From positions 1 through 21,949 of the IMG/VR virus record IMGVR_UViG_3300030107_000172: DNA of 21,949 nucleotides. One strand, given 5' to 3'. A program made the translations under genes and the position numbers. The first letter of the stretch is position 1; every line of letters begins with the position of its first letter. Shown here in pieces: positions 1-17,669 of the stretch. The notes under the pieces are model-generated. The model was not told where the DNA came from and made no database searches. It saw only the letters and a list, made by a program, of their open reading frames with translations. Source of the DNA: a virus.

Positions 1-580
1 GATCTAAGTAAAAATAACCACCTGCATAACCAGAACCTGTAAAGTTTACTGTATTACTATCACCATCGACATCAACATAAGAAGTACCACCATCATAATT
101 TATATCAAAATCAAATTGGTTTCCATCTCCTTGTATAATCCAATCTAAATCAAGAGTTGCTGCTAAAGCACTTGTTCCATGATCTAAAGTAAAGGTGTTT
201 GTGCTGCCTGTAACATCAACATTATAATTTGAACTATCAATACCATAAGTATTAGTAGGATCTCCTTGAATAGTAAAAGTATTACTATCGCCATCAAATT
301 CAAAAAAACCTGTTACAGAATCTCCTAATATATCACCAAGAAATTTGTTTGTATCACCTATTTGGTTTATATCTAACGTCATAGTAATACCATCTAAATC
401 TAGTGCAGTTAGCGTACCTGCAACTGAATTTAGACCACCAATAATATTACCTGAACCAATTTGTTCTAAATCTATATTAGCAGTAGCACCACTTTGATCT
501 ACATATATTTCGTTATCAGCCCCGTATGTTGTCAACGCAGTCAGCATCACAATCAGGCTTATCAATTTTAATTGAGTCAT
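1..580 (-). CDS. Secreted curlin-like repeat protein (partial, runs off left edge)
   Basis: An open frame starts with ATG at 580 and stays open for 193 codons to the left edge, so the C-terminus is missing. The first 20 or so residues look like a Sec signal peptide: Lys5, then a hydrophobic stretch LISLIVMLTAL, and probable cleavage near YGA-DN. The rest is low in charge, rich in Gly, Asn, Asp and Thr, and built of repeats with a G-x-x-N core at about residues 42, 75, 97, 125, 151 and 173 (IGSGN, IGDTN, DGDSN, TGSTN, QGDGN, DGDSN). The first two follow the curlin style with E-Q-I-G or N-Q-I-G. Curlin subunits (CsgA/CsgB) are secreted through CsgG and stack such repeats into amyloid strands. 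A good ribosome site (GGGAG, 7-base spacer) supports this start. The gene overlaps the CsgG-like gene by 65 bases. Substrate status is inferred from repeats, signal peptide and neighbours. The later repeats are degenerate, so a different beta-solenoid protein is possible. Confidence 0.72.
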   Translation of the reverse strand, partial: MTQLKLISLIVMLTALTTYGADNEIYVDQSGATANIDLEQIGSGNIIGGLNSVAGTLTALDLDGITMTLDINQIGDTNKFLGDILGDSVTGFFEFDGDSNTFTIQGDPTNTYGIDSSNYNVDVTGSTNTFTLDHGTSALAATLDLDWIIQGDGNQFDFDINYDGGTSYVDVDGDSNTVNFTGSGYAGGYFYLD

Positions 581-1385
581 TCTTTTTCTCCCAAAAACCT
601 TTATCATAACCTATTTTTACTATTTGCAAAACTGCTTCTTCTACAGCTTTTTGTAAAGCTAAAGTTGTAGGCTCGTTTTCTGCATCTCCTGTTTCTATTT
701 CTACAAGTTCTGTACCTGCTTCAATAAACCTAAAAACATCTTGTGATTGTCCATAACTATAAATTTGTTTATTCACCAAAACATCAATTAATACTTCTCC
801 TGTAGCTATAGAAACCATACGCAAGGCAACTGTTATATTGTCTATACGGTATTGTTTACTACTGCCAATTCCTAAATATCTAGCACCAATACCACCACTT
901 TTAATATTTGTGTCATACCCAATTACTGCACCTTCCATAAGCACACCTGCAAACAATAAAGGCATAATAGGTTTAGGTCCATCTGTTGCTTCGTTTTGTT
1001 CCCTAGCTGATCTTATAAGTTGTCTTTCTTTGGTAAGATTGTCCAGTCCAACTCTTTCAGCTACTCTAAAAAATTTACCATCTGCGGTATGTTTTAGAGT
1101 TCTAATTAATAAATGACTTGGAGCTTGCGTTAGTGCTGTACTAAACAAAGCAAATTCACTATTACTTTTTCTTTGTCCTGTTTGATCTGTAAAACTATTA
1201 GGATATACCGCAACAACAATAGGTATTTTAGGTTGTGCTACATTTAATAATTCTTCAGATTGTATTTGTAAAATACTAGGTAAAGTTTTACCTTGTTGTA
1301 AATTAGTATCTACAGGAGCTAAACTACAACTAGAAAGAAAAATCGCCAATAGGCAACTGAATTTCTGTAACATTTCCGTTTTCAT
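516..1385 (-). CDS. csgG: CsgG-like curli secretion channel lipoprotein
   Basis: This 289-residue protein is a clear CsgG homologue, the outer-membrane lipoprotein that forms the nonameric curli secretion pore. It has a lipoprotein signal with lipobox L-S-S-C (Cys20). Ser at position +2 is compatible with outer-membrane sorting. The most diagnostic block is residues 152-174, with GYDTNIKSGGIGARYLGIG, followed by YRIDNITVALRMVSIATGEVL, a Phe-Arg-Phe-Ile segment near 218 and ENEP at 236-239. Each of these matches E. coli CsgG as I remember it. Length is normal for the family. By hand alignment the constriction Phe is kept (F81), while the Tyr and Asn of the E. coli eyelet appear to be Asn75 and Leu80. 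The C-terminal tail (about residues 270-289, with C-D-A-D-C) is unlike E. coli and is encoded where the next gene overlaps. The start overlaps the CsgF-like gene by 56 bases. Met5 (at 1373) is an alternative start that also keeps the lipobox. Confidence 0.93.
   Translation of the reverse strand: MKTEMLQKFSCLLAIFLSSCSLAPVDTNLQQGKTLPSILQIQSEELLNVAQPKIPIVVAVYPNSFTDQTGQRKSNSEFALFSTALTQAPSHLLIRTLKHTADGKFFRVAERVGLDNLTKERQLIRSAREQNEATDGPKPIMPLLFAGVLMEGAVIGYDTNIKSGGIGARYLGIGSSKQYRIDNITVALRMVSIATGEVLIDVLVNKQIYSYGQSQDVFRFIEAGTELVEIETGDAENEPTTLALQKAVEEAVLQIVKIGYDKGFWEKKNDSIKIDKPDCDADCVDNIRG
588..592 (-). promoter_or_regulatory. Ribosome binding site of the curlin-like gene
   Basis: GGGAG on the minus strand lies 7 bases before the ATG at 580, inside the 3' end of the CsgG-like gene. 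It decides the start of the curlin-like gene and shows that the 65-base overlap is probably real. Confidence 0.6.
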
Positions 1386-1830
1386 CCGTAATAATTAAAG
1401 TAATAAGGCCATCTTTAATACTATATTGAATGGTATTACCCTCTAATGTTAAAGTACCTTCTGTGCTTGGCGTTTCTCCAAATAAATTTTCTACAAGTTG
1501 TCTTGATAGTTGTGCGTAAATTCTTGATTCTAAATTACGAATAAATCTAGCTAACGTGGTATTTTCTTTATCTCTCTCTAACTGTTCTTGTATAGCTTTT
1601 ATTTCTTCTTTGATAGACATTTTACGATTAAATTCTTGATTCTCTATCGTTAAATAGTGTGAACTTGTACCAATACCACTAAATGATGGATTTTTAAATT
1701 TGTGAGTTATAGTGTCAGCAGTTAAATTTATACATAAAATAGCTACAAACATAATAGCTCCTATATAAAAAGCCCATATAGCTATTCTAGTTTTTTCTAA
1801 TTCATGTTGATCAATCTTTCCTTTGGTCAT
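1330..1830 (-). CDS. csgF: CsgF-like curli assembly factor with N-terminal membrane anchor
   Basis: The protein is 166 residues from ATG at 1830, preceded by AAGG with a 9-base spacer. Residues 39-52 (DTITHKFKNPSFSG) match the mature N-terminus of E. coli CsgF, including the F-x-NP-x-F segment that plugs into the CsgG channel. The C-terminal part (about 92-163) fits the rest of CsgF: a helix ending in Q-L-V-E-N-L-F, then beta strands with IQYSIKDGLITLIITDE and a closing TEIQLP. Residues 71-91 add a charged helix. It differs from CsgF in its beginning: a 15-residue charged cytoplasmic stretch and a hydrophobic segment at about 16-37 instead of a short Sec signal. LTA-DT would allow cleavage; otherwise the protein stays anchored in the inner membrane. 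The gene overlaps the holin-like gene by 20 bases and the CsgG-like gene by 56. CsgF normally couples secretion through CsgG to fibre nucleation at the cell surface. Confidence 0.85.
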   Translation of the reverse strand: MTKGKIDQHELEKTRIAIWAFYIGAIMFVAILCINLTADTITHKFKNPSFSGIGTSSHYLTIENQEFNRKMSIKEEIKAIQEQLERDKENTTLARFIRNLESRIYAQLSRQLVENLFGETPSTEGTLTLEGNTIQYSIKDGLITLIITDENGNVTEIQLPIGDFSF

Positions 1831-2161
1831 CTCTATCCGCCTTAGCAATTTTGTTGCTATCTATTAACTGTGGCACACCTAGTATAGTCTTGATAAGTGT
1901 ATCTTGCCTAATAATTTCGTTGTCTAAACTGCGGATTCTGTCTATCAATGCTACCAAAATACCGTGTTGTGAATCAAGTTTTGTACCAAGTCGTTCTTCA
2001 ATCGCTTGTATTTGACCAGCTACTTTTTCATCAACTACATCTAATTTTTGCTCCATGCCATCTACAATACGCATGATAAGCTTATAAATAAACCAACCAA
2101 GACCAAGTGCGGCTGCAATAGGAAATCCAACTTCTTGAATTAAAGTAACGGCTGATTCCAT
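1811..2161 (-). CDS. Holin-like small membrane protein
   Basis: This 116-residue protein has one hydrophobic segment near the N-terminus (about residues 11-30, VGFPIAAALGLGWFIYKLIM) followed by a long charged helix with heptad character (about 33-90). One membrane span plus a soluble coiled coil is typical of small phage holin-like proteins and of spanin or anchor proteins. No enzymatic motif is visible. The start overlaps the nuclease stop by one base (TAATG), and the 3' end overlaps the CsgF-like gene by 20 bases. Expression of the three is therefore probably coupled. Holin function is inferred from topology and late-gene position; no lysozyme was found beside it in this window. Confidence 0.55.
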   Translation of the reverse strand: MESAVTLIQEVGFPIAAALGLGWFIYKLIMRIVDGMEQKLDVVDEKVAGQIQAIEERLGTKLDSQHGILVALIDRIRSLDNEIIRQDTLIKTILGVPQLIDSNKIAKADRDDQRKD

Positions 2162-2541
2162 TAATAATCACCCCAAACTTTAGTCTTAGTTCCTCCGTGA
2201 TATTCTACTGCATGACCTTCATCTACAAGCATTTTACAGATGTCTTTGCCATCTTCTGTGTATGGTATACCTAATATACGACCATACTTACCTTTACCTA
2301 AAGATTTAACTTTTATACTGCCGCAACAAAGTTCTTTTAGTCTTGCTTTTGCAACAAGACCAAGTTTCTTTTCAGCAAGATCTCTAGTTCTACTTTCTGG
2401 TGTATCTATGCCTGCAAGCCTAACACGTTGTTTATGTAGCTTTACATCAAATCCAAGATCAAGACAGCAATCAAATGTATCGCCATCTACGATTCTTTCT
2501 AATGTAGCGTTATAAACAAACGCATCAGGTGATTTAGCCAT
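2161..2541 (-). CDS. Staphylococcal-nuclease-type (thermonuclease) domain protein
   Basis: The 126-residue protein is a single SNase (OB-fold) domain. The calcium-binding and catalytic positions are all recognisable: VDGDT at 18-22 with Asp21, RLAGIDTPES at 41-50 giving Arg41, Asp46 and Glu49 (the same 5 and 3 spacing as Arg35, Asp40 and Glu43 of the staphylococcal enzyme), and Arg88 in KYGRILG. It should therefore be an active calcium-dependent nuclease. No signal peptide is visible, so it would act in the cytoplasm, for example on host nucleic acid late in infection. TAATG overlaps join it both to the small protein upstream and to the holin-like gene downstream. A pair of Cys at 25-26 and another at 72-73 is unusual for the family. 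The specific role in the phage is unknown. Confidence 0.88.
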   Translation of the reverse strand: MAKSPDAFVYNATLERIVDGDTFDCCLDLGFDVKLHKQRVRLAGIDTPESRTRDLAEKKLGLVAKARLKELCCGSIKVKSLGKGKYGRILGIPYTEDGKDICKMLVDEGHAVEYHGGTKTKVWGDY

Positions 2542-2862: not shown

Positions 2863-3070
2863 TATTACTCTCCTCTTTTATTTTACCAGTTTGTTCTTTC
2901 ATGCTTTCTGCCATAGCTTGTTTATACATATTTAAACTAGGCATAAGTTCATCAATTTCAAAATGATGTTGTGATATTTTAGTTGTCAAGCTTTGTATAT
3001 GAGCTTGCAGATTTTTTTGTTCAGGCGTAAATTCTACCTCAACAGTTTCTTTAGTTTTGGCTTTTGCCAT
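2849..3070 (-). CDS. Hypothetical protein with helical coiled-coil character (73 aa)
   Basis: This 73-residue, strongly hydrophilic protein has a Lys-rich start (MAKAKTKETVEVEFTPEQ), a central helix of about 45 residues with Leu/Ile/Met spacing suggestive of a coiled coil, and an Asn/Asp-rich end. No membrane segment or known motif is visible. Its start overlaps the oxygenase stop by one base (TAATG). I do not recognise a function. Confidence 0.65.
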   Translation of the reverse strand: MAKAKTKETVEVEFTPEQKNLQAHIQSLTTKISQHHFEIDELMPSLNMYKQAMAESMKEQTGKIKEESNNDNN

Positions 3071-3786
3071 TATTGCACCTCCTTAGGTGTTGGTTGCACA
3101 TCCCAACAGTTTAAGTTGGATGCGATGGTTCGTCTTTCTCCTTCACCTTTGAAGGGATAGACCATATGTTGTAACCAAGAAGGGAAAAGTAATAACTTTC
3201 CTACTTCTGGAGTCATAACAAATGATTGAGCTGGTTTTAATCTATCGCCGTCTATAACTGATACTTGTCCGTATTGAAATGTTATACAGCCGTCTGAATG
3301 TCCACTTTCATTGTATAGCGAATACGTTGGTGTGTTAGCTGTAGCTTTTGCACCTATTTGTGGCGGTACTTTAGTCCAAGCTGTAGTAGATATACCCATT
3401 ATAGTTTTAGTGCCGTGATCGTGTATTGGGTTGTAGTCACCATCGTAACTATGTACTGACCAAGTTTCGTCTATTTGAACTTGTTTAGGACCTTTAAGAC
3501 TATTACCCGAAGCAGCAAAATGATTAATATATTCAACACCAAGGTTGCAGATAAAATTATTATAGTCGACCATTCTTTTATCATTGTGATCTAACAGTAA
3601 CTGCTCTCCTTTATCTATTTGTCCTACTAAAGTTTTTGCTAAGGATTCTTTATTTTTATCTTCCCTATACTCATCCATATAATCATTAACATCATCAATC
3701 ATCTGCTGTGGCATTTGTGTTTCTAATACATATACCGCAGGCATATTGTGCATAGTAAATTTGTGACCTCTCTCCTGATCATTCAT
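3070..3786 (-). CDS. Putative 2OG-Fe(II) oxygenase
   Basis: The 238-residue protein fits the phage 2-oxoglutarate/Fe(II)-dependent oxygenase family (PF13759-like). The iron ligands are probably in NPIHDHG (His122/His124 with Asp123) and His207 in LLLFPSWLQHMVYPF. Arg218/Arg219 in GERRTIASN would bind 2-oxoglutarate. The family hydroxylates proteins or small molecules and is frequent in phages of marine bacteria, but the substrate is rarely known. The gene follows the tail fibre region by three bases past a small unknown gene, so a structural or surface protein is a possible target. The exact first ligand pair (H-x-D or H-x-H) is ambiguous because the motif reads HDH. Confidence 0.75.
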   Translation of the reverse strand: MNDQERGHKFTMHNMPAVYVLETQMPQQMIDDVNDYMDEYREDKNKESLAKTLVGQIDKGEQLLLDHNDKRMVDYNNFICNLGVEYINHFAASGNSLKGPKQVQIDETWSVHSYDGDYNPIHDHGTKTIMGISTTAWTKVPPQIGAKATANTPTYSLYNESGHSDGCITFQYGQVSVIDGDRLKPAQSFVMTPEVGKLLLFPSWLQHMVYPFKGEGERRTIASNLNCWDVQPTPKEVQ

Positions 3787-4122: not shown

Positions 4123-6981
4123 TTATTCTCCTTCGTTTAATTTAGTTTTTAATTCTTCTACTTGCATAGAAAGTTCTTGTATTGCTTTTACTAACACAGG
4201 CACAAGTTTTTCATACTTCATACTATATTGTTTACCGTCTTCTGATAAATTTATAGTTAAGTTAGTTTTATTATCTTTATCATAACCTGCTGCTTTTTCT
4301 AATATTTCAACATCTTGTGCTTTAAACCCTATATCTAACCAATTTTCTTTATGAGTTCCATCATGTGTAATAGTATCTAAATCTGTATCTGGGTTTGTAT
4401 CCCAATCAACATAATTAATCCTTTTATCCCATTTATAAGTATAGGGCTTCATTTGTTTTACAAAATCTAGCCCTAAGTCTAAATTTGTAAAATCAGTTTT
4501 ATCTCTTTCATCTGATGCAACTGATAATGCGACCTGACAATTTAACTGATCAATACTTGAATTACCTAAAACGACTTTATTACTTGCACTTGTTATTTGA
4601 CCGCCAGGCATACCAGATTTACCTGCTTCTTTACCTAGTAATAAATTATTAGAACCAGTTGTAAGATTAGCTCCTGCATTTGTTCCTATACAAGTACATT
4701 CAGATGAAGTTGTAGCATCTTCCATAGCATCAACACCCAATGCTGTGTTATTACTTGCAGTAGTAATATTTTGTCCTGTTCTTGGACCTATAAGTGTATT
4801 AGTGCTTCCAGTTGTTAGATCTGTTCCTGCTTGGTAGCCCATTATTATATTATTAGAACCTGTAGTAATAGCATCTCCTGCATAATTACCAACTATTGTA
4901 TTATCAGCACCTGTAGTTATTGCGGCTCCTGCAAATACGCCTATTCCTACATTATCATCGCCTGTTGTAACTGTATCAAGAGCACCATAGCCAACTGCTA
5001 CTCCTCTAGCTGCTGTAGTGCTAGAAGTTAGGGCAGCACTTCCAACAGCAGTATTATATCCACCAGTTGTTGTTGCATCTAGTGCGTTTCTACCTACTGC
5101 GGTGTTATGTATAGCTGTTGTATTTGCTGTTAATGCATCAAAACCAACAGCTGTATTTGAATGACCTGTGGTGTTTGCTCTTAATGTTTCAGAGCCAACT
5201 GCCGTATTATTAGAAGCTGTAGTATTAGCCTGTAGTGCTGTATATCCTACAGCAACATTAGAAGCACCAGTTGTATTGGCAGCCATGGCATCTCTGCCTA
5301 TAGATGTATTTTCATCTGCTGTTGTGTTTTGAGGTAAAGAATTGTAACCAACAGCAACATTGTTTGTTCCTGTTGTATTTAAAGCCATCGCTGTATGTCC
5401 AAAAGCTGTATTATTGTTTGCTGTGGTATTAGCAGTCATCGCTTCAAAACCAACAGCTGTATTTCTAATACCTGTGGTATTTGCGTCAAGAGATGCACCA
5501 CCAACTGCTACATTTTGATCGCCTGTGGTGTTTGATAATAAAGCATCTTTACCTACGGCTGTGTTATTTGAAGCTGTAGTATTTGCTGCTAATGCTGCTG
5601 CACCAAATGCTGTGTTATTACTTGCTGTTGTATTCGCTTCTAATGCAGCATAACCAACACCTACATTACTACCACCTGTTGTATTTGCTACTAATGTATT
5701 ATGACCAACACCCACGTTTGATGCTCCAGTAGTATTTGCTACTAAAGAACTTGTACCTACTCCTGTATTACTAGCACCTGTTGTGTTTGCTTTTAAAGCA
5801 TCTTTACCTACTGCTGTGTTGTCACTAGCTGTAGTGTTTTGTTGTAATGAATCGGTGCCAACAGCTACGTTTGATGCTCCTGTTGTATTTGAACCAAGAG
5901 CAGATGTTCCAACGGCTGTATTGTTTGAAGCAGTCGTATTAGCATCTAGTGCTTGACCACCAACTGCTGTGTTTGAAGCACCTGTGGTATTAACTAATAA
6001 AGCATTTCTACCTATAGCTGTGTTAAAAGTTGCTGTGGTATTAGCTCCTAATGCTCCAGCTCCTACTGCTGTGTTGTAACCACCTGTGGTGTTAGCATCC
6101 ATAGCTTGACTACCAACTGCTGTATTTTCTACACCACTTGTTAAATCATCAAATACTTCAAAACCTAAACCTGTGTTATCAGAAGCAGAAGATAAAGTGC
6201 CTGTACCTGCATCATTACTGATAAGTAAACTTTGTGAAAAGTTAGTTATATTGTATGAAATACCTACGCCATTAACTGTACCAGCAGTTAAAGCTCCTGA
6301 TACATCTGCTGCACCATTCATATCAATAGTAGTAGCGTTGATTTCTATTTCAGTATCAGAAACTAAATCTAAAACTCCATCTGCTGATTGATGTATATAA
6401 GTTCCAGAATCACCAAATTGTAATTGTCTAGTGCTGTTTAATAAAATGCCTGTATCTGCAACATGAGTAAGAGTAGTGTCTGTATCAGCACCAAAACCCA
6501 AGACTGACGCATCAGACGCAAGTGTTAAATCATCTTGAACTTTTAAATCTACTACGCTAAGACTAGCGAAAGCGTCTACCATAGCTCCGCCAGATCCTGC
6601 TCCGTCTGAATAAATTGCTTTAGTATCTCCAGGAGGTACGGTAATTGTTGCTCCAGAGCCTTGTTTAATAATTATATTTTGAGATCCAGAAGTACCGTTT
6701 TCTATAAACCAAAGCTTAGATACGGTATTAGGGCTTATAGTTATAGTACAAGCACTATCAAGAGTACCTGTATATTTAAGATACATAGACCTACCTGGGT
6801 CTGTTGCTCCGTCAGCTATTACTGTGCTGTGAGTATCAGCGTTTGTTGTTATAGCCTCTGTACCAAAGCTAAATGCTTCTGCAATAAGCTCTAAATTTGT
6901 ATTCGTAGATGTTCCCCAGGTTCCTGATTCATCACCTGTCGCTATCTCTTTTAACCTTAAATCATTTACATAAGTTGCCAT
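4123..6981 (-). CDS. Tail fibre/spike with 29 tandem repeats and S74 autoprocessing domain
   Basis: This is the largest gene, 952 residues. Residues 1-60 look like a phage fibre attachment region, and 60-290 hold beta-rich shaft sequence. Residues 297-789 are 29 tandem copies of a 17-residue unit of the form NTT-x-x-x-N-T-A-V-G-x-x-A-L-x-A, similar in style to head repeats of YadA-like trimeric adhesins (Hep/Hag type). Residues 820-952 form an S74 intramolecular chaperone domain: the motif ASDERDK places the cleavage Ser at 823 and the partner Lys at 828. FVKQMKPYTYKW and GFKAQDVEILE follow, then the coiled-coil end QELSMQVEELKTKL. Such fibres trimerise, release the chaperone by self-cleavage and bind the host surface. 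Variable residues cluster at fixed points of the repeat, as expected for exposed loops. The gene follows the 22-residue-repeat protein by three bases. Confidence 0.93.
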   Translation of the reverse strand: MATYVNDLRLKEIATGDESGTWGTSTNTNLELIAEAFSFGTEAITTNADTHSTVIADGATDPGRSMYLKYTGTLDSACTITISPNTVSKLWFIENGTSGSQNIIIKQGSGATITVPPGDTKAIYSDGAGSGGAMVDAFASLSVVDLKVQDDLTLASDASVLGFGADTDTTLTHVADTGILLNSTRQLQFGDSGTYIHQSADGVLDLVSDTEIEINATTIDMNGAADVSGALTAGTVNGVGISYNITNFSQSLLISNDAGTGTLSSASDNTGLGFEVFDDLTSGVENTAVGSQAMDANTTGGYNTAVGAGALGANTTATFNTAIGRNALLVNTTGASNTAVGGQALDANTTASNNTAVGTSALGSNTTGASNVAVGTDSLQQNTTASDNTAVGKDALKANTTGASNTGVGTSSLVANTTGASNVGVGHNTLVANTTGGSNVGVGYAALEANTTASNNTAFGAAALAANTTASNNTAVGKDALLSNTTGDQNVAVGGASLDANTTGIRNTAVGFEAMTANTTANNNTAFGHTAMALNTTGTNNVAVGYNSLPQNTTADENTSIGRDAMAANTTGASNVAVGYTALQANTTASNNTAVGSETLRANTTGHSNTAVGFDALTANTTAIHNTAVGRNALDATTTGGYNTAVGSAALTSSTTAARGVAVGYGALDTVTTGDDNVGIGVFAGAAITTGADNTIVGNYAGDAITTGSNNIIMGYQAGTDLTTGSTNTLIGPRTGQNITTASNNTALGVDAMEDATTSSECTCIGTNAGANLTTGSNNLLLGKEAGKSGMPGGQITSASNKVVLGNSSIDQLNCQVALSVASDERDKTDFTNLDLGLDFVKQMKPYTYKWDKRINYVDWDTNPDTDLDTITHDGTHKENWLDIGFKAQDVEILEKAAGYDKDNKTNLTINLSEDGKQYSMKYEKLVPVLVKAIQELSMQVEELKTKLNEGE
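4615..6093 (-). repeat. 29 tandem 51-bp units (17 aa each)
   Basis: The fibre gene contains 29 in-frame, gap-free units of 51 bases. Units 1-20 begin NTT; later units begin TTT, STT, VTT, ITT, LTT or ATT and have drifted towards a different second half (G-x-x-A-G). The residue after NTT alternates between Gly and Ala over long runs (units 1-6 and 13-23), which points to an older 102-base double unit. Codons differ between copies, so the array is not a recent perfect duplication. Confidence 0.9.
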
Positions 6982-11593: not shown

Positions 11594-11782
11594 TTAAACT
11601 TTTCCACCCTTTGCCATATATTTACTTTTTTTCATTGGGCCGCCTTTAGCCATGTACTTGGACTTTTTCATTGCTCCACCCTTGGCCATATATTTAGAAC
11701 CTTTCATAGCACCGCCTTTAGACATATATTTACTGCCTTTGACAGCACCACCCATTGCATAATGTTTTGTTCTTTTAAACAT
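11594..11782 (-). CDS. Lys/Gly-rich 12-residue-repeat protein (62 aa)
   Basis: Almost the whole 62-residue protein is repeat: after a 10-residue start (MFKRTKHYAM) come four 12-residue units of the form GG[AP][VM]K[GK]SKYM[AS]K, then a partial GGKV. It has many Lys, no acidic residue at all, and a Tyr-Met pair in every unit. It must be strongly positively charged and either disordered or repetitive in shape. Nucleic-acid or membrane-surface binding is plausible. It lies at the end of a run of five basic proteins and shares the GGPM-K motif with the EF-hand-like protein of the run. Function unknown. Confidence 0.75.
   Translation of the reverse strand: MFKRTKHYAMGGAVKGSKYMSKGGAMKGSKYMAKGGAMKKSKYMAKGGPMKKSKYMAKGGKV
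11609..11752 (-). repeat. Four tandem 36-bp units (12 aa each)
   Basis: Four gap-free 36-base units encode GG[AP][VM]K[GK]SKYM[AS]K. Codon differences between units are few, suggesting relatively young duplication. Confidence 0.85.
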
Positions 11783-11963: not shown

Positions 11964-12407
11964 CTAGCTTATAGTGGTTACTTTTCTGCGGTTATTCATA
12001 ACTTTACCACAACCTTTAGCTATAAAACCACCATTTTTCTTTTTTACTCTGTTTTGAGCAGCCATAGATCTTTCAATAGCCATACCTCGTTTTTTTTCAT
12101 ATGAAGATAATTTGCCATCGTTATTAAGATCAGCTTTAGATTTATTTTTTATCATAGGTCCTCCTTGACGCATTGAAACTTTTGCTTTTTTTGTGTTGGC
12201 AACAACAGTTTTACCTTTGCTACCTGCTCTTTTCTTTTTTCTAGCTGTTGTTGCACGCTCTGCTTTTGACAAACTGTTTGCTTTAGATCTTGGTAAACAA
12301 CGATCTGGGTTTTTTTTATCTTTACTTGTACCACACGGTCCTTTGATAGAACCATCTGTACCAATTCTAACCCAATTTTGCTCTCGCCATTCTTTGAGCT
12401 GACCCAT
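11964..12407 (-). CDS. Basic phage protein with EF-hand-like loop (147 aa)
   Basis: The N-terminal part has WREQNWVRIGTDGSIKGPCG, then RCLPRSKANSLSKAERA and a Lys/Arg patch (TARKKKRAG). I remember this as a conserved marine-phage module. Residues 93-104 read DLNNDGKLSSYE, a textbook 12-residue EF-hand loop (Asp1, Asn3, Asp5, Gly6, Leu8, Glu12), followed by a helix. The C-terminus has GGFIAKGCGKVMNNRRK, which matches the end of the next upstream protein. GGPMIK (82-87) recalls the repeat protein. Calcium binding and nucleic-acid contact are inferred. The start overlaps the neighbouring stop by one base (TAATG). The protein may be a virion or DNA-organising component. Confidence 0.78.
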   Translation of the reverse strand: MGQLKEWREQNWVRIGTDGSIKGPCGTSKDKKNPDRCLPRSKANSLSKAERATTARKKKRAGSKGKTVVANTKKAKVSMRQGGPMIKNKSKADLNNDGKLSSYEKKRGMAIERSMAAQNRVKKKNGGFIAKGCGKVMNNRRKVTTIS

Positions 12408-12622
12408 TATCTAAGTCTTTCCTTCATAACAATACCTTGTCCTCTAATTACTGGGCCACCTTTAGCTTTTTTAGCTCTTTTAGATTTTTTAGCGTAGTTA
12501 GGATCTTTGCAATACTTAGATGCAGCCATATTTGCATAAGCTGAAGGGTATGTATCAAAAGTTCTTTTTGCCCAGGCTTTACCTGAAGGACATATTTTGC
12601 CACCACTTTTTGCTTTAGCCAT
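12407..12622 (-). CDS. Small basic Cys-containing phage protein (71 aa)
   Basis: The 71-residue protein contains GKICPSGKAWAKRTFDTYP and SAYANMAASKYCKDPNYAK, a pattern I recall as strongly conserved in marine phage structural regions. Cys11 and Cys38 could bind metal or form a disulphide. A Lys-rich stretch (KKSKRAKKAK) precedes the C-terminal motif GGPVIRGQGIVMKERLR shared with the EF-hand-like protein. The stop overlaps that gene's start by one base, and the start follows directly on the stop of the next upstream gene. Function unknown. Confidence 0.78.
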   Translation of the reverse strand: MAKAKSGGKICPSGKAWAKRTFDTYPSAYANMAASKYCKDPNYAKKSKRAKKAKGGPVIRGQGIVMKERLR

Positions 12623-12916
12623 TTAACACTTCCATCTTCTTCTTGCTTGCCTAATTCTTGAATTAGGATCATTTCTTGTTTTTGCTGAACTTTTTTTAAG
12701 TTGTCCTGCAGATCTAGCACAATAGGACTTACGTCTTTTTGCGGCTTTACTGCCTTTTTTTACTTTACCAGTCACAGCAGTTTTAAGTTTGCTACCAGGA
12801 TTTGCTTTTCTATAGGCCTTTACGCCTTTTTTGGTCATTCCCGCCCCACTTTTAGTAGGACGGTAATTTCCACCTTTACCTGTAGTTCTGCGTATAGGTT
12901 TTGCTCTGCTAGCCAT
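12623..12916 (-). CDS. Highly basic conserved phage protein (97 aa, possibly DUF6321)
   Basis: The 97-residue protein has about one third Lys/Arg. Its central block, GMTKKGVKAYRKANPGSKLK then TAVTGKVKKGSKAAKRRKSY and CARSAGQLKK, followed by RIRQARRRWKC, is one I remember as a conserved phage domain (I believe DUF6321). Cys66 and Cys97 are candidates for metal or disulphide bonding. The charge suggests nucleic-acid binding in the capsid or during packaging, but no function is established to my knowledge. It opens the run of five basic genes, three bases after a structural gene. Confidence 0.8.
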   Translation of the reverse strand: MASRAKPIRRTTGKGGNYRPTKSGAGMTKKGVKAYRKANPGSKLKTAVTGKVKKGSKAAKRRKSYCARSAGQLKKSSAKTRNDPNSRIRQARRRWKC

Positions 12917-17156: not shown

Positions 17157-17669
17157 TTATACTGCAAGAATATCATCAGGATCTAGTATAGTAGCTATTA
17201 CTTCATCATCGTTAATGATTCTGCATTCAGACTCATCTCCAAGTTTGAAACGAGCTCCAGCATACCTGCCTATCAATACCCATTGTTTTTCCTGACACCA
17301 TGGTTCTGCAAATTTATTTGCGTCTTTATAGCAATCAGGGCCCATTTTTACAACATATCCAACCACTGTAGCTAAAGATTCTCTATCTACAGTTGATTGA
17401 ACTAGGTGTATACCGCCATCGGTAACCGCTTTGCCTGCATAAGGAAGTATTAACATCCTCCAACCTGTAGGTTGTGGCATTCGGTCTAAAAAAGATTTTT
17501 CTAATAAAGTAGGATCTAGTACCCGTGCAGATTCTTTTACATATGCAGGGTTTTCTTGTTTGGATTCAGGACCACCATCTTCTGTTGGTGTATCAATTGT
17601 TTTGTTTTGTTTTTTTAAGTCAGATTCTATGGACTTTGCTACATGATCAGGGACTTGTATCTTTGTCAT
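17157..17669 (-). CDS. Phage-encoded GroES-like co-chaperonin
   Basis: Residues 64-170 of this 170-residue protein follow the Cpn10 fold: GWRMLILPYAGKAVTDGGIH has the core strand and a mobile-loop-like segment with hydrophobic triplet IHL (87-89). VVGYVVKMGPDC matches the G-x-V-x-x-V-G pattern. WVLIGRYAGARFKL and DDEVIATILDPDDILAV resemble the barrel end of GroES. The N-terminal 63 residues are a phage-specific extension. Co-chaperonins like T4 gp31 replace GroES so that host GroEL can fold the large capsid protein. The placement between portal/terminase and scaffold/capsid supports that. The start overlaps the upstream gene by 23 bases. Confidence 0.83.
   Translation of the reverse strand: MTKIQVPDHVAKSIESDLKKQNKTIDTPTEDGGPESKQENPAYVKESARVLDPTLLEKSFLDRMPQPTGWRMLILPYAGKAVTDGGIHLVQSTVDRESLATVVGYVVKMGPDCYKDANKFAEPWCQEKQWVLIGRYAGARFKLGDESECRIINDDEVIATILDPDDILAV

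Follow-up and report, generated by a model that had tools for sequence, protein, structure and literature searches.

The window, the whole stretch of 21,949 nucleotides analyzed here, is one viral record, as a record check established. Near its start, all on the minus strand and in order of transcription, lie a staphylococcal-nuclease-like endonuclease gene (SNase; 2161..2541), a gene for a small membrane protein of 116 aa (1811..2161), csgF (1330..1830), csgG (516..1385) and the 5' part of a curlin-like gene (2..580). The last three junctions overlap by 20 bp (116-aa gene/csgF), 56 bp (csgF/csgG) and 65 bp (csgG/curlin). The SNase-like gene, assigned by PF00565 (E = 1.4e-12) and synteny, is a syntenic upstream neighbor and was kept outside the module. 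Translation and Pfam searches confirmed the claim of the first-pass annotation that positions 1-1830 hold three overlapping minus-strand genes for CsgF, CsgG and a curlin-like protein; the CsgF and CsgG profiles are both matched far above the Pfam cut-offs, and the family matches support its view that a phage carries type VIII secretion genes for a channel, for CsgF and for a substrate. No Rfam match to a riboswitch control as in Melnitz was obtained in the window or in the related loci L003 and L051, and promoter and terminator signals at the module were not above chance level.

Channel, accessory factor and curlin-like substrate

CsgG (289 aa), the outer-membrane lipoprotein pore subunit, is identified by PF03783 (E = 2.7e-48), by E. 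coli CsgG as the PDB match (E = 4.9e-48), and by alignments and a tree. Its lipobox, LSSC20, is nearly invariant, Cys20 being invariant in comparison with bacterial CsgG; the signature block GYDTNIKSGGIGARYLGIG is present, and the pattern GY(D/E)xNxxxGGxGxxYxGIG is retained relative to bacterial CsgGs. The Tyr-Asn-Phe constriction of E. coli CsgG is only partly kept in the aligned phage CsgG, whose loop is one residue longer. CsgF (about 166 aa, ATG at 1830) passes the cut-off of PF10614 (E = 7e-18) across residues 24-158, an assignment backed by alignments. It begins with a hydrophobic or signal segment followed by FKNPSFSG, and the alignment keeps the motif FxNPxFxG, which in mature E. coli CsgF lies at the CsgG-binding N-terminal end.

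CsgE, unrecognized in the window at first reading, is indeed absent: PF10627 had no match in the window record and seven related phage records, including the complete genomes of HTVC008M and Melnitz, with a positive E. coli control. In E. coli, CsgE is a periplasmic plug and adaptor that makes export efficient; it is not universal. Because the alphaproteobacterial curli type also lacks CsgE (PMC9599517), this absence does not bar membership in type VIII. With CsgG, CsgF and a curlin-repeat substrate present and CsgE missing, the set can be classed from its sequences as a type VIII (curli) system with putative fiber formation.

The secreted curlin-repeat protein, the putative T8SS substrate, preferably starts at the in-frame ATG at 580 rather than at 607, and its gene exits the contig at base 2, so that the window holds the first 85% of the protein (193 of about 229 residues). 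It comprises a signal peptide and two canonical half-repeats, VDQSGATANIDLEQIGSGN and MTLDINQIGDTN, plus degenerate rungs. Seven G-x-x-N turns, spaced by 22-33 residues, compare with a shuffle mean of about 1.1-1.3 (0/3000 shuffles as high), and canonical half-repeats are nearly missing from shuffled sequences. PF07012 matches the partial copy weakly (E = 0.18), reaches 20.5 bits against a cut-off of 20.7 in the full-length relative L003, and passes in the orthologues L139 (21.9 bits) and Melnitz (26.0 bits); all scanned members of the window's own clade miss this cut-off. An AlphaFold model of modest confidence (pLDDT 68) displays short beta rungs in a run. Among predicted viral proteins, the four that match it best have E ≤ 2.1e-4; three bear the name 'Curlin associated', with E down to 2.4e-6. 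Comparison of the model with solved CsgA fibrils was not significant (E = 2.7), no PDB fold match was significant, and direct profile comparison with E. coli CsgA and CsgB yielded probabilities of only 3% and 8%.

The small membrane protein, recognized by profile, position and inspection, consists of a single membrane span and a coiled-coil tail; about 97 residues are typical, within a range of 57-121 aa. A search with its profile recovered a single copy or a pair beside csgF in 140/140 podo- and myophage loci with at least 1.5 kb of upstream sequence; the phage module obligatorily begins with this gene. A tblastn search of 50,697 phage records recovered it only in HTVC008M and Melnitz strains, all curli-bearing, and 289 alphaproteobacterial genomes contained it only in one MAG, on contigs carrying the phage module. 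In several myophage loci (L139-L150), one copy lies between csgF and csgG, not before csgF. PMC9599517 states that curli genes are always preceded by one, sometimes two histidine kinases, and we equate the small membrane protein with this gene because position and copy number match that description. HATPase_c and HisKA domains were absent from 18 members of the family, and HATPase_c (PF02518) was absent from eight phage records, including complete HTVC008M and Melnitz, with 14/14 control genomes positive. The gene identified by position and copy number with the published 'histidine kinase' is therefore not a kinase. A weak match to a YvrJ/BhlA-type holin (E = 0.18) was also seen. The protein may be a phage-specific helper of the module, of which it is a defined candidate component.

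Further genes of the window, all on the minus strand, include a 2OG-Fe(II) oxygenase (3070-3786; PF13759, E = 3.3e-14) immediately upstream of the curli region and a 952-aa tail spike (4123-6981), rich in NTTGxxNTAVG-type repeats and ending in an S74 endosialidase chaperone. The tail spike varies among relatives (27-91% identity), whereas the nearby curli genes are near-constant. A 62-aa basic protein (11594-11782) is built from the repeat KYMAKGGxMKKS, present four to five times (TRF period 36), and adjoins more small Lys-rich proteins (11964-12916); these may be DNA-condensing or virion proteins. A protein with a Cpn10 (GroES-like) domain (17157-17669; E = 1.5e-6) is encoded in the head-gene region.

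Phage lineage and conservation of the module among relatives

The TerL of the window phage is 58-62% identical, and its portal 43-47% identical, to those of 023Pt_psg01, HTVC027P, DSL-LC04 and HTVC023P; by both proteins HTVC023P and HTVC027P, with portal identities of 46-47%, are nearest, before all other phages except DSL-LC04. Based on these identities, the window phage is assigned as an HTVC023P-type podovirus, a marine relative of SAR11 podoviruses, and a putative host is assigned to the contig from phage lineage alone. The four reference genomes gave no CsgG or CsgF match; the isolates with such matches are HTVC008M and Melnitz.

In the CsgG tree, the window protein falls inside a podovirus clade (support 100/100), and phage CsgGs are split from four bacterial CsgGs (support 99/91). 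CsgG was detected in 4/297 sampled Pelagibacter-family genomes, two copies being canonical and the other two matching at E = 2.7e-9 and 4.3e-6; both canonical copies sit on phage-like contigs with a phage-type module. This rarity agrees with literature describing SAR11 without curli. The small membrane protein, FecR and cyclase had no match near csgFG at three alphaproteobacterial csgF loci. A bacterial origin or misassembly was considered and rejected, the matches in genome collections being phage-like contigs binned into MAGs.

Relatives were collected in two scans, the first giving 80 viral loci with close csgG and the second, with HTVC008M CsgG as the query, 80 myophage-type loci. Across the first set, SNase, small membrane protein, csgF, csgG and curlin follow one another in unchanged order. 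A 370-aa FecR-domain protein and a 584-aa CHASE2 cyclase follow in every one of the 56 close relatives whose sequence extends 2.5 kb or more past curlin. In a mixed set of podophages, myophages and contigs binned into MAGs, each having 4.5 kb or more behind csgG, curlin, FecR and cyclase are all present at 72/74 loci. The 370-aa protein matches Pfam FecR (E = 2.1e-9) and by inspection has an apparent signal peptide. The 584-aa protein combines CHASE2 (E = 1.5e-27) with a class III cyclase domain (E = 5.1e-19; both Pfam), whose metal-binding Asp motifs, Lys/Asp adenine contacts and Asn/Arg motif appear intact. Because the contig ends within the curlin gene, the FecR and cyclase genes of the window phage are predicted from these relatives. 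By eye, the C-terminus of the FecR-domain protein resembles curlin repeats, and one half-repeat beats shuffles (P = 0.006); the idea that it forms nucleator-like curlin repeats was dropped, given a 1% probability against the curlin profile and a model pLDDT of 42.

After the cyclase, podovirus contigs with at least 4 kb encode a phage lysozyme (endolysin) in 32/47 cases and a putative holin, which has no Pfam or named PHROG match, in 28/47; an Rz-like spanin family occurs in four contigs, and the remaining 15/47 carry different downstream genes, probably for virion or ejection functions. Many myophage loci have a second curlin between FecR and cyclase, which was found in none of the podovirus relatives sampled. 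One podovirus contig binned with a Maricaulis MAG (L185, 3916-5040) carries csgF-csgG-curlin-FecR followed by holin-like and lysozyme-like genes and no cyclase, so FecR and cyclase are separable.

The survey bears on several statements of the first-pass annotation. Channel, CsgF and curlin co-occur in kept order in dozens of viral contigs, as it had suggested looking for, and misassembly with a bacterial chromosome, which it had named as a risk, is excluded because the order SNase-small membrane protein-csgF-csgG-curlin, with tail genes upstream, recurs in dozens of independent viral contigs. Its term 'minimal' cassette does not hold, since relatives have FecR and cyclase genes past the contig end and a small membrane protein gene precedes csgF in the window itself. 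Its placement of the genes at the end of a late operon needs correcting: the module does lie in the late gene block, but lysis or other virion genes come next in relatives.

Selection on the module and its possible function

Pairwise Nei-Gojobori dN/dS over the non-overlapping gene parts, values to be read with dS near 1, loci picked by CsgG similarity and pairs non-independent, was in podoviruses 0.038 for curlin, 0.069 for FecR, 0.080 for CsgG, 0.086 for the small membrane protein, 0.132 for CsgF and 0.178 for the cyclase, with neighboring control genes at 0.06-0.31 (lysozyme 0.198, SNase 0.075, putative holin 0.062). Curlin is thus the most constrained module gene in podoviruses and under strong purifying selection; its dN/dS was below that of CsgG in 1795/1847 matched podovirus pairs. 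Myophages showed the same direction (curlin 0.129, CsgG 0.193; curlin lower in 1001/1185 pairs), and their second curlin is loose (0.460, about 3.5 times the first). That curlin is more constrained than CsgG favors a working export substrate and counts against a pore-only role; it is unlikely that a gene so constrained merely accompanies a pore retained for another purpose. To our knowledge, this argument from curlin constraint has not been published before.

The most likely reading, which we consider probable, is a late CsgG/CsgF pore exporting a curlin-type surface protein, with cyclic-nucleotide signaling attached. Late in infection, nine CsgG subunits would come together as a pore in the infected cell's outer membrane, capped by CsgF. 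The host Sec pathway would deliver the curlin-repeat protein to the periplasm, from which it would pass through the CsgG pore and assemble on the cell surface into a beta-solenoid or amyloid-like coat, while the FecR-domain protein and the CHASE2 nucleotide cyclase might sense coat or export and signal via a cyclic nucleotide. Gene identities, operon order, the absence of CsgE, purifying selection on curlin and linkage to virion and lysis genes are direct observations; export, assembly, timing and benefit are what we infer. The likeliest benefit would be a coat that blocks superinfection or holds neighboring cells together, an idea put forward in PMC7029224 and PMC9599517. Caution is warranted because CsgE is missing, only two canonical half-repeats are present, the structural model is modest, and Melnitz-infected cultures showed no clumping (PMC9004378). 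It is conceivable, if rather doubtful, that the module is a rewired type VIII apparatus complete in itself. In this reading the small membrane protein, a phage-specific extra element, would help export in place of CsgE/CsgC or link export to the CHASE2 cyclase, and the nearly invariant curlin would form a coat, produced shortly before lysis, that acts against superinfection or in cell cohesion.

Degenerate repeats, the C-terminal cysteine pair conserved in the alignment of podovirus curlin and the PA14 domain in the second curlin of HTVC008M would suit an exported protein that coats the surface without forming fibers, acts as an adhesin or decorates virions, and is not an amyloid. In that second curlin (L082, 9435-10760, annotated as hypothetical), PA14, a glycan-binding type of domain, accompanies three curlin repeats. 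We regard a non-fibrous product as unlikely, since canonical half-repeats are retained, as is CsgF, which in E. coli couples export to fiber nucleation. Improbable as well, and more so, is that the pore now serves as a gated hole in lysis or its timing, with curlin incidental, as put forward for Melnitz (PMC9004378). The endolysin and putative holin after the module in podovirus relatives do place it in a lysis neighborhood, and the Melnitz authors' model has a narrowed pore (PMC9004378). However, an endolysin just downstream, joined in some contigs by an Rz-like spanin, weakens this idea because no stand-in is needed, and the 15 other podovirus contigs have different downstream genes. CsgG, moreover, is an outer-membrane pore and cannot substitute for an inner-membrane holin. 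Curlin, the supposedly incidental part, is more constrained than CsgG; although csgA and csgB were said to be lacking in Melnitz (PMC9004378), its deposited annotation lists two curlin-repeat genes. Least probable of all, and very much so, is uptake of large nutrients such as cobalamin or siderophores during infection (PMC7029224, PMC9599517), FecR then being an iron-related regulator. The missing CsgE plug and the FecR domain speak for it, but on inspection the FecR-domain protein apparently starts with a signal peptide, where true FecR has a cytoplasmic anti-sigma N-terminus, and the conserved curlin and CsgF are left unexplained.

If the fiber reading is true, the ocean's most abundant bacteria receive from their phages a surface-fiber system that they never had, which would affect aggregation and superinfection; the constraint on curlin is a concrete reason to prefer this reading over a pore-only hypothesis.

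Relation to known curli systems

The first-pass annotation held that the unit deserves description; phage curli modules were already published in 2020-2022, and the window contig is a further member, since PMC9599517, PMC7029224 and PMC9004378 preceded it. The CsgF-CsgG-curlin-FecR-cyclase module was described in HTVC023P-type podoviruses, the same lineage, and in pelagimyophages (PMC9599517, 2022), along with its myo-to-podo transfer, ocean-wide presence and expression in ocean metatranscriptomes (PMC9599517). Reports of csgF and csgG in pelagimyophages also exist, with sibling capture proposed (PMC7029224). Lysis, superinfection exclusion and aggregation, uses that the module may have, are likewise published hypotheses. 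Added here are the curlin constraint, the lysis-gene neighborhood and the re-reading of the 'histidine kinase'.

The closest system is the HTVC023P-type pelagipodophage T8SS (PMC9599517, Clades V, VI, VIII and IX), which has lineage and CsgF-CsgG-curlin-FecR-cyclase order in common with the window. Both are without CsgE, CsgC and CsgD, and a gene called HK precedes; the window differs in that its curlin is cut by the contig end and its preceding gene encodes a small membrane protein, not a kinase. The clusters of the pelagimyophage HTVC008M and the methylophage Melnitz (PMC7029224, PMC9004378) also comprise CsgF, CsgG, curlin, FecR and cyclase, with two copies of the small membrane protein. 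Their CsgG, however, is only 38-42% identical to that of the window, a second curlin is present (with PA14 in HTVC008M), and the cluster lies in a hypervariable region (PMC7029224), not beside lysis genes. With E. coli csgBAC/csgDEFG the phage module shares the CsgG pore lipoprotein, CsgF and secreted curlin repeats. Unlike the E. coli system, it has no CsgE, CsgC and CsgD were not seen, and its curlin repeats are degenerate, while it adds a small membrane protein, a FecR-domain protein and a CHASE2 cyclase.
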